From assembly GCA_017544185.1 (NCBI GenBank), contig JAFYEQ010000121.1:1-11328 (forward strand): DNA of 11,328 nt, in the 5' to 3' direction. Of this stretch, positions 2,686 through 11,221 are shown piece by piece. Numbering within the stretch: the stretch's first letter is position 1; every line of letters starts with the position of its first letter. Made by a program: the position numbers and the translations under genes. Source of the stretch: Oscillospiraceae bacterium. GTDB lineage: Bacteria > Bacillota > Clostridia > Oscillospirales > Ruminococcaceae. The notes beneath the pieces are model-generated. The model saw only the letters and a program-made list of their open reading frames with translations, had not been told where the DNA came from and ran no database searches.

Positions 2686-3066
2686 ATGATAAATTTCAAC
2701 AAGGACTCTATATTCAATTTGAAGCCCATAGATCTGGGATCCGTCAGGAAGGACGTGATGGGTCTGATGATAGATGGCGAGGAAGCGGTGATGGCGTTCC
2801 AGACCGTAAGAGACCAGCTGGTCTTCACCAACAAGAGGATAATATCCATCGACGTGCAGGGCATCACAGGAACCCGTAAGTCATATTCTACCATGCCCTA
2901 TTCCAAGATACAGTTCTTCTCCATACAGACCCAGGGCTTTCTGGAGATATTCCCCGACTCCGAGCTGTTCCTGATGTTCAGCAACGGCTTCACTGCAAAG
3001 TTCGAGTTCAAGGGAAATGTGGATATAGGCAGTATCGGCAGGATGATCTCCGAGTACGTTCTGTAA
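2686..3066 (+). CDS. Small bacterial PH-domain protein (bPH_1 / DUF1696-like)
   Basis: The 126-residue protein matches the bacterial Pleckstrin-homology family found in YvbH-like proteins. Its hallmark is GEEAVMAFQTVRDQLVFTN followed by KRIISIDVQGITG (about 29-62), then YSTMPYSKIQFFSIQTQG, acidic and hydrophobic strands, and FEFKGNVDIGSIGRMISEYVL, the closing helix. There is no signal peptide or membrane segment, so it is cytosolic. The biochemical role of this family is not established. GAGGGGG lies 7 nt before ATG 2686; another ATG at 2681 is out of frame. Isoleucine is coded mainly by ATA (10 of 14), the normal pattern here and opposite to the preceding gene. No convincing promoter lies between the upstream terminator and this start, so it may depend on read-through or on a non-consensus promoter. 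It ends at a 15-bp hairpin. Confidence 0.88.
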   Translation: MINFNKDSIFNLKPIDLGSVRKDVMGLMIDGEEAVMAFQTVRDQLVFTNKRIISIDVQGITGTRKSYSTMPYSKIQFFSIQTQGFLEIFPDSELFLMFSNGFTAKFEFKGNVDIGSIGRMISEYVL

Positions 3067-3071
3067 TTACA

Positions 3072-3108
3072 GCACCCGCCTTGACATTGTGTCAAGGCGG
3101 GTGCCTTT
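3072..3108 (+). terminator. Terminator-like 15-bp hairpin after the PH-domain gene
   Basis: GCACCCGCCTTGACA (3072-3086) and TGTCAAGGCGGGTGC (3090-3104) form a perfect 15-bp stem with a 3-nt loop (TTG). It begins five bases after the stop. Only a short CCTTT tract follows, so the U-run is weak for the plus strand. There is no U-run on the minus strand, where it would also lie downstream of holA. Confidence 0.75.
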
Positions 3109-3136
3109 CATACTACTCTTGATGTAGATCGTGGAC

Positions 3137-3237
3137 AGATGCGGGGCATGGAGGCAACAGCCCCCATTTGGGATGTGGCGATAGCCACACATTCCCGGCG
3201 ACTGCGTCAGCAGTCGCATCTCTTGTCCCTTGTCTCT
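3137..3237 (+). repeat. Dispersed structured repeat, copy A
   Basis: This is an approximately 100-bp element with a diverged second copy on the opposite strand at 11070-11169. Over the best block (3198-3232 against 11074-11108) 32 of 35 bases agree, and similarity continues with small indels across the rest. Three hairpins with four-base loops follow each other: ATGGAGGC/GCCCCCAT around AACA (3148-3167, one mismatch); GGGA-TGTGGC/GCCACA-cat-TCCC around GATA (3170-3196); and GCGACTGC/GCAGTCGC around GTCA (3198-3217, perfect). A tract CTTGTCCCTTGTCTCT closes the element. It lies in the convergent gap between the PH gene and holA. The orientation is arbitrary, set so that both copies read the same way. 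A REP/MITE-like repeat or a structured RNA fits; the function is unknown. Confidence 0.75.
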
Positions 3238-3266
3238 AGCAACTGTGGCAGCAGTTGCATCTCTTT
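3198..3266 (+). repeat. Tandem pair of 28-nt hairpin units
   Basis: Units 3198-3225 and 3239-3266 agree at 23 of 28 bases (41-nt period). Unit 1 forms GCGACTGC/GCAGTCGC. Unit 2 forms GCAACTG/CAGTTGC (3239-3245 with 3252-3258). The G-C pair at stem position 3 is replaced by A-T in unit 2, so pairing is kept. Both end in ATCTCTT. Copy B elsewhere has only one unit, so the second is a local duplication. Confidence 0.75.
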
Positions 3267-3303
3267 ACTGTGAAAAAAAATTTAGAAGCAGAGCAGAATA
3301 GTA

Positions 3304-4347
3304 TCATCTGTTTGTGAGCATGCGTATCACAGCATTCTCAAGTACGGTCTCGGGCCTGCCTATGCCTGACTTGATGTCTATGTCAGCCTTGCAGAGTATC
3401 TCCATGCAGCGCCTGAGATAGCGTACATCCGTGCGCTGCGCCGACCTGAACGCATTGGTCACCTTGAAGGACAGGTTCCTGGGATAGGAGAAGTCGGCTA
3501 CCACGTCGTTAACGCTCTTCCCCGCATCCAGAGCCAGCCTTGCACGATATATGTCGTCCATAGCTCCCGTGATGAGGTACAGCATCGCCACAGGCTCGCC
3601 CCTGTTGCGTATGAGACGGTCGTATACCTCCAGAGCGCGGTCAAGATCATGGGCAGCTACCGCATCCGACAGAGCGAACACCTTGGTGTCATCATTCTCG
3701 GGAGTCACAGCGAGCACATCCTCCACCGTGACCATACGTCCCGCAGCATAGGCTGCCAGCTTGCCCACCTCGTTGGATACAGCGGTCAGGTCGCCTGTGC
3801 GCTCAAATAGGAGCTGAGCTGCCTTTCGGTCGATGCTGCTGCCTTCCGCCGTGAACATGGACGCGATCTCCTTCGCCGCCTCAGACGCCGTGGGTATATC
3901 TATACGCACTACTGTACCGCATTTAGCGATGAGGTCTGTCAGCTTCTTGTTCTTCTCCGTGGGCCCCTTTTTACCGCCACATATGTCCGCATCAAGGGTG
4001 TAGAATATGAGCACCGTGGTATCGGGAAGATCCTTGATCTCAGCATAAAGCTCCTTGAGCGCCTTGGCCCCGGGCTTTACAGTCTCAAGGTCGAAGTCGC
4101 ATACAGTTACGCACATCTTCTCGGCGAATACGGGCAGCGCCTCGCAGGCCTGTATCATATCGTCGGTGCTGTCCTTCCCCTCGAAGCGATGCAGGTTCAG
4201 GCTCTGGGCATTTTTGTCGATGATACTGTCCACCAGAGCGTTCTTCATGCGGTCGATGGTGTACCCGTCTGTGCCGTATATGTAGTATGCCCCGCCGGCC
4301 TCGTGTGACTTTATTATGCGGGAAAGCTCCGCCTTCTTTATCTCCAT
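3304..4347 (-). CDS. holA: DNA polymerase III delta subunit
   Basis: This is the delta subunit of the clamp loader, which opens the beta sliding clamp during replication. The 347-residue length is usual for the family. The N-terminal domain begins MEIKKAELSRIIKSHEAGGAYYIYGTD, keeping the degenerate nucleotide-fold start (GTDGYTIDRM) that has lost a true Walker A, as in all delta subunits. A hydrophobic strand TTVLIFYTLDAD lies near residue 110. The central part has LFERTGDLTAVSNEVGKLAAY, the classic delta motif where the domain II helices start, and the C-terminal collar domain ends with CKADIDIKSGIGRPETVLENAVIRM. The ATG lies one base after the comEC stop, with GGGAG inside the end of comEC as ribosome binding site, so translation is coupled. 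It is the last gene of the cluster. Eight T on the minus strand (3280-3273) follow its end, without a convincing hairpin before them. Confidence 0.96.
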   Translation of the reverse strand: MEIKKAELSRIIKSHEAGGAYYIYGTDGYTIDRMKNALVDSIIDKNAQSLNLHRFEGKDSTDDMIQACEALPVFAEKMCVTVCDFDLETVKPGAKALKELYAEIKDLPDTTVLIFYTLDADICGGKKGPTEKNKKLTDLIAKCGTVVRIDIPTASEAAKEIASMFTAEGSSIDRKAAQLLFERTGDLTAVSNEVGKLAAYAAGRMVTVEDVLAVTPENDDTKVFALSDAVAAHDLDRALEVYDRLIRNRGEPVAMLYLITGAMDDIYRARLALDAGKSVNDVVADFSYPRNLSFKVTNAFRSAQRTDVRYLRRCMEILCKADIDIKSGIGRPETVLENAVIRMLTNR

Positions 4348-11004: not shown

Positions 11005-11056
11005 GATCACCTACAATGATCCTTATGTCATACACTATCCGGATCCTAGATCATTG
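11005..11056 (-). promoter_or_regulatory. Alternative pairings around the HD-GYP ribosome binding site
   Basis: In plus-strand coordinates, 11014-11021 (CAATGATC) is fully complementary to 11049-11056 (GATCATTG), an 8-bp stem just upstream of the ribosome binding site. The TGATC part of the same segment (11017-11021) can instead pair with GATCA at 11005-11009, placing the AGGTGA ribosome binding site (11007-11012) half in stem and half in loop. The two pairings exclude each other, a layout suited to translational control. Confidence 0.4.
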
Positions 11057-11069
11057 GTCCGTAGTAGGA

Positions 11070-11169
11070 GGGGCAAGGGACAAGGGATGCGACTGCTGAC
11101 GCGATCGCTATGGAATGTGTGACCATCGTCATATCCCCAAGCAGGTCGTTACCTCGTGCCGCTGTATCT
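11070..11169 (-). repeat. Dispersed structured repeat, copy B
   Basis: This is the second copy of the element at 3137-3237, on the opposite strand and within the leader of the HD-GYP gene. In plus-strand coordinates the three hairpins are AGGT/ACCT around CGTT (11143-11154), TGTGAC/GTCATA around CATC (11118-11133) and GCGACTGC/GCGATCGC around TGAC (11089-11108, one mismatch and one G-U pair). Two stem changes relative to copy A keep pairing: C-G to U-A closing hairpin 1, and G-C to A-U in hairpin 2. A tandem CAAGGGA heptamer (11074-11087) ends it. It lacks the duplicated third hairpin of copy A. Its presence in a transcribed leader means that it is made as RNA here. Confidence 0.75.
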
Positions 11170-11221
11170 ATCCATGGAACGGATCAAGAACAGTATCATA
11201 TACGAACAAGATGCTACCCTT

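Follow-up and report, generated by a model that had tools for sequence, protein, structure and literature searches.

Delimitation of the element in the window

The 11,328-nucleotide stretch of DNA analysed here, referred to as the window, raised the question of what kind of sequence stands in it twice, in opposite orientations, as a run of consecutive hairpins between genes. A preliminary description had placed this sequence at 3137-3237 with a diverged copy on the opposite strand at 11070-11169, and had suggested either a REP/MITE-like mobile repeat or a family of structured RNAs. A mechanical search of the window recovered the inverted match, pairing 3198-3237 with 11069-11108 (40 nt, 88%) and 3167-3195 with 11112-11140 (29 nt, 83%). 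The interval holds real repeated sequence but is too narrow, as aligned copies share 3110-3304, and while all three of the hairpins described earlier are present in copy A, a fourth hairpin at 3239-3258 and terminal inverted repeats outside the interval had been missed. The features of both copies are collected in Table 1. An nhmmer profile of 190 positions matched copy A with an E-value of 1.5e-57 (model positions 2-189) and the degraded copy B at 11034-11195 with an E-value of 6.7e-23 (model positions 2-188).

Table 1 Features of the repeated element in the window
Feature	Position	Strand	Basis
Copy A, complete element, 195 bp	3110..3304	+	nhmmer 3111-3298; ends read from aligned copies
5′ terminal inverted repeat, ATACTACTCT (family consensus ATACTATTCT)	3110..3119	+	aligned copies
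Hairpin 1, loop AACA	3148..3167	+	folding
Hairpin 2, loop GATA	3170..3196	+	folding
Hairpin 3, first palindrome of the repeated unit, loop GTCA	3198..3217	+	folding
Two heptads, TTGTCCC TTGTCTC	3223..3236	+	sequence; heptad arrays family-wide
Hairpin 4, second palindrome, absent from the preliminary description	3239..3258	+	repeat search
3′ terminal inverted repeat, AGAATAGTAT	3295..3304	+	aligned copies
HolA ORF stop codon (TGA), which overlaps copy A at its outer end	3304..3306	-	sequence
Copy B, degraded, 165 bp, upstream of an HD-GYP-type gene	11032..11196	-	nhmmer; outer borders by reading the sequence

No promoter-like match was present in 3040-3330, which covers copy A and its surroundings. 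The bPH-domain gene is closely followed, at 3072-3104, by a perfect palindrome, GCACCCGCCTTGACA TTG TGTCAAGGCGGGTGC, and then CTTTC; this is probably the terminator of that gene and stands directly before copy A. Elsewhere in the window, at 1882-2616, an ORF of 244 aa whose N-terminus is signal-like matched no Pfam family at E ≤ 0.001.

Copy number and modular anatomy in the own genome

The genome to which the window belongs (G000) is an assembly of 1.99 Mb in 393 contigs that is 70% complete. A blastn search with 3117-3277, in which 40 of the 94 first-look candidates were scored, gave at least 57 matches at E ≤ 1 and bears out the earlier expectation of a high-copy family. A covariance model built from 25 copies, for which 150 of 619 candidates were scored, yielded at least 76 at E ≤ 0.1. 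The nhmmer profile, made from 13 seed copies and run on 70 stretches around these matches, found 62 places at E < 1e-5 and 68 at E < 1e-3, one element, on contig C204, being counted twice. The 62 places cover both ends of the model in 29 cases, the 5′ end only in eight, the 3′ end only in five and neither end in 20. Both ends could be placed in 30 copies, which span 124-308 bp, with a median of 186.5 bp and 50% GC. The element is thus short, present in many copies and devoid of a transposase gene of its own, as expected of a MITE.

The order of modules in these 30 copies is a terminal inverted repeat, ATACTATTCT, hairpins 1 and 2, units of a palindrome followed by TTGTCCC heptads, and a 3′ module ending in AGAATAGTAT; counts by alignment column showed the inverted repeats at both ends. 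A full copy starts with ATACTATTCTTGATCTAAACCATGGATAGATGC and continues with hairpin 1 (GGGGC..GCCCC), hairpin 2 (TGTGGC GATA GCCACA), the palindrome GCGACTGC GTCA GCAGTCGC and ATCTC with its TTGTCCC heptads, often a second palindrome, GCAACTGC..GCAGTTGC, and a closing TTTACTGCGAAACAATGATCTAGAAGCAGAATAGTAT. The inner modules are absent, present or repeated depending on the copy, and some palindrome-heptad units stand at places in which the profile detects neither end of the element. Replication slippage or unequal exchange would have expanded these units.

Several further arrangements were seen in the own genome. At L063 (C14:2448) and L061 (C210:1158), the palindrome-heptad units are preceded by another sequence, GGTCAGATA..TGAAGAT.AC.CTTCCC, which is common to the two places and may be a second 5′ module. 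The copies L066 (C307:2619-2853) and L068 (C65:9542-9798) each enclose another palindrome, GTGGGCTGACACATAGGTCAGCCCCTAC and GTGGGCGGACACGCAGGTCCGCC, which we take to resemble the GTAG-ended repeats of Firmicutes, so that one repeat seems to be nested in another. Another short palindrome, unlike these, occurs as GTGGGGGCTTGCCCCCAC or in reverse at L202, L208 and L210 (contigs C160, C328 and C350), two of which have a GGAGCG flank in common.

Ends of the element and a candidate source transposase

The outer borders are sharp in the aligned copies, with similarity stopping at the terminal repeats, and the last conserved bases are a T at -2 (25 of 30 copies) and an A at +2 (23 of 30). Elements of the IS630 family duplicate TA. 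A TA duplication fits the ends of the present element but, without an empty site, is indistinguishable from part of the terminal repeat; no empty site was seen at the HolA locus in the relatives, where the neighbourhood downstream of HolA is not shared. Of the two marks of transposition that the preliminary description had proposed to look for, a target-site duplication of 2-12 bp did not rise above shuffles in 29 copies (best z 2.4 in 275 tests of length and offset), and a linked transposase was likewise not found in G000, where the 70% complete assembly had no match to DDE_3 and none to ORF A of the IS element of a relative, G013.

A candidate for the source of the ends was present in other genomes of the genus. 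In G015, which at 78% HolA identity is the closest to G000 of the 18 relatives that matched this protein, the sequence ATACTATTCTTCATCTA, which lies 107 bp beyond a DDE_3 match, agrees with the outer end of the element at 16 of 17 bases, while no stretch in 300 mononucleotide-shuffled kilobases had fewer than three mismatches. Its position is about that of the 3′ end of the IS elements in G018 and G002 (110 bp), and the G015 contig terminates inside the IS element. The IS630-like terminal repeat was thus found by way of this relative rather than in the own genome. The IS element of G013 has paired ends, ATACTAATCTTC, and against the NCBIfam IS630 model (cut-off 100) its DDE part scored 157 bits and its other frame 58.5 bits, below the cut-off. 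DDE_3 matches were found in eight of the 20 genus genomes; of the ten regions examined (12 matches), the nine besides that of G015 came no closer to the element's end than 5-7 mismatches, as in shuffles, and the likeness between the IS end and the element's own 3′ end extends over only about 10 bases. In G016, five DDE_3 fragments stand at contig starts (L230, L238-L241); they appear to be a separate multi-copy element, the three examined being without an end like that of this family.

Taken together, the 62 places, the common ends, the inverted repeats, the IS630-like end and the patchy occurrence in the genus make it likely that the element is a non-autonomous MITE, mobilised in trans by a transposase of the IS630 type and BOX-like in its modular interior. 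An IS630-type transposase (Tc1/mariner superfamily), now lost or unassembled in G000, would have recognised ends of the type ATACTATTCTTGATC and inserted the element at TA. The lack of a transposase in G000 lowers our confidence in the IS630 assignment but does not exclude it, since MITEs can outlive their source element. The earlier suggestion of a mobile palindromic element is therefore retained on the strength of its terminal repeats, copy number and IS630-like end, but its REP label is wrong, because the element is modular and bounded by terminal inverted repeats; a length of about 190 bp and up to four hairpins do not fit a REP, which the cited portion of PMC3733652 gives as a single extragenic palindrome of 20-40 bp.

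Occurrence among relatives

We searched 20 genomes of the genus, scoring at most 150 candidates per genome in the covariance-model scans, and among the candidates scored found family members in two, G000 and a sister species, G017; G015, nearer to G000 than the sister species by HolA, had none among its scored candidates. A search of the same 20 genomes with the hairpin-1 pattern gave seven palindromes in G000, 14 in G017 and one in G005, and none with the reversed control. Three of the G000 matches and the one in G005 were read, found to be other palindromes and set aside. The exact pattern from hairpin 1 to hairpin 2, a strict one that recovered seven of the own copies, occurred in the own genome only among 297 family genomes drawn, a draw that did not contain G017. 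The copies of the sister species have in common hairpin 1, a GTG[..]CAC hairpin 2, TATACCC heptads and, in some cases, the terminal repeat (ATACTATTCTTGGAACAT, L182), and differ in the rest of their sequence. No IS630-type transposase was found in G017. A phage or virus origin was considered and rejected, with no match in phages and none in viral_contigs for the one exact pattern used there.

Folding and covariation of the hairpins

The second of the earlier suggestions was a family of structured RNAs, which would be small RNAs or untranslated-region elements whose hairpins are kept by selection. Copy A folds far better than its shuffles (z -4.40 on the plus and -4.17 on the minus strand, with none of 200 shuffles as good), which speaks for such a family, but the fold is lost in copy B (z -0.21 and +0.57 for its own and the opposite strand), and the modules are freely missing or repeated. 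No Rfam family reached its gathering threshold in the window, and permissive matches at 3060-3320 were all far below theirs.

The compensatory changes named in the preliminary description are present in the two window copies, but over the core of 25 copies changes on both sides of a pair are few, amounting to six cells in five of 26 pairs. The share of paired cells, 90.3% versus 89.5% in shuffles, was reached by nine of 500 shuffles, and the other four pairing measures by 23, 11, 117 and 28 of 500, the first two being both-side changes at five pairs and in six cells and the last the covariation score. The share of paired cells and the covariation score speak for selection on the hairpins. Against it, both-side changes were no commoner than with partners slid by 1-3 columns (five pairs versus 0-6), and the RNAalifold covariation term was only 0.11, so that the covariation looked for on the earlier suggestion is at most slightly above its controls. 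The 65 distinct palindrome units of G000 gave a stronger signal, with a pairing of 396 compared to 361.1 (sd 5.4), above all 5000 shuffles; however, this was reached by 19 of 5000 shuffles when one position was left out and by 366 of 5000 when two were, and these two positions look like inherited subfamily differences.

In the sister species, ten quite different sequences stand in the place of hairpin 2 in different copies, and their arms are still complementary. Under strict flanks, 27 of 27 outer pairs were complementary (nine inserts, outer three positions), and under looser flanks 29 of 30 (ten different inserts); these inserts were gathered by a flanking pattern that left copies with other flanks (e.g. 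L159, L162 and L168) uncounted and may favour pairing. Crossing the ten inserts gave 1.52 of three pairs, and none of 20,000 permutations was as high as the real arms.

Two processes can each explain this pairing of swapped stems, namely selection for shape and the copying of one arm from the other. In the latter case, replication strand switching in quasi-palindromes would rewrite one arm from the other and the covarying hairpins would belong to a neutral element, which is compatible with the MITE reading. We regard strand switching as possible, somewhat short of an even chance; the wholesale yet complementary arm changes in G017 and the mostly one-sided decay in G000 agree with it, although it would need to be common in the one species and rare in the other. 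Selection of shape rather than sequence, with the hypervariable hairpin 2 as a transposon-borne DNA or RNA hairpin, seems unlikely to us. For the family as a whole, selection on structured RNA is improbable, being unsupported in G000 even as the swapped stems of G017 pair strongly. The likely reading remains a MITE, in which the hairpins are part of a mobile DNA element.

Heptads and the quadruplex motif

Arrays of at least three heptads numbered 49, of which 14 have three units and 16 have four, the longest having 34. On one strand the heptads read G3N4, in the form TTGTCCC in G000 and TATACCC in G017, and thus differ between the species in their loop letters. The occurrence of such heptads in both species, together with the heptad precedent in the cited portion of PMC4692102, would fit a G-quadruplex regulatory repeat of the Xanthomonas/Nostoc type in which the hairpins are accessory, and each C of the CCC is intact in 53 or 54 of the 55 G017 heptads. 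In G000, however, the middle C is a T in 72 of 302 heptads, and a four-run quadruplex motif occurs in only seven of the 30 complete elements and in neither window copy. We therefore consider a quadruplex repeat very improbable, and keep to the MITE reading.

Insertion sites and stop codons

A TGA stop codon of an ORF lies exactly at the border of the element (offset -2) at ten of the 60 ends of the 30 elements, while the other 99 offsets examined together hold the stops of 23 ORFs. The count was made with ORFs of at least 100 codons; nine of these ten ends were delimited and the tenth (L064) was judged by eye. The ORFs themselves have 104-185 codons in four cases, including that at L064, and more than 200 in the other six. 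The example in the window is HolA at copy A. This HolA has its C-terminus within a few residues of where the G015 and G017 proteins end, and the stop is therefore probably native or nearly so. The coincidence suggests that the element either targets sites at TGA stops or survives there since its end keeps or supplies a stop codon.

An asymmetric TGA..TRA target was also tried, ten of the 30 copies having been dropped beforehand for poor ends; ten of the remaining 20 were concordant (permutation p = 0.035), which is only suggestive, and the target was not adopted. The orientation of copies relative to genes, taken from a crude and unreliable gene caller, was convergent in 11, tandem in nine and divergent in four of 24 typed copies, with six of the 30 untyped. 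One copy, L024 (C313:6566-6745), is flanked on its two sides by the arms of an inverted repeat, ATATCCCCCA, and looks as if inserted into a hairpin loop.

Comparison with known repeats

The closest parallel in layout is the BOX element of Streptococcus pneumoniae, which in the cited passages of PMC3049150 consists of outer modules around variable inner modules, with lone inner modules elsewhere. The likeness extends to terminal inverted repeats, predicted stem-loops, many intergenic copies and near absence from most relatives. By the same passages, BOX ends are ISSpn2-like, whereas those of this family are IS630-like, and the inner unit here is a palindrome followed by heptads, the two being compared by layout. 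RUP, as portrayed there, is likewise a small MITE with terminal repeats like those of IS630-Spn1 (IS630 family) and a proposed mobility in trans, but it is simple, about 107 bp long and AT-rich with 27.5% GC, compared to a modular 124-308 bp and about 50% GC here.

The GGGNATC and GGGGA(C/T)T heptads of Xanthomonas and Nostoc resemble those of this family in their intergenic position and G3 run (PMC4692102, cited portion). They prefer four units, compared to 16 of 49 arrays with four and 14 of 49 with three here, and are generally found without mobile elements, whereas ours lie inside an element bounded by terminal inverted repeats, with four intact runs in seven of 30. The Correia elements of Neisseria, as described in the cited part of PMC10969869 and compared by that description, are also gene-adjacent MITEs, of about 200 bp and in more than 100 copies, but carry promoters, unlike copy A.

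The open-licence PMC literature on MITEs, IS630, stop codons and Ruminococcus yielded no description of such an element. The family is new, and we set it apart as a family of its own within a known kind, the BOX/RUP-like MITEs. The element is probably without a host function, and as an untranslated sequence next to genes it may have an effect on their transcripts. The sharp coincidence with gene stop codons can be tested by a transposition assay. Were the shape of hairpin 2 indeed selected, the reason could be its recognition at TGA-marked gene ends, for example by a transposase, a DNA-binding protein or an RNase. The hairpins of the sister species offer a clean case for telling selected hairpins apart from those that strand switching has made. 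A little-studied genus gains a BOX/RUP-like element of its own, for which a neighbouring species offers a plausible source transposon.
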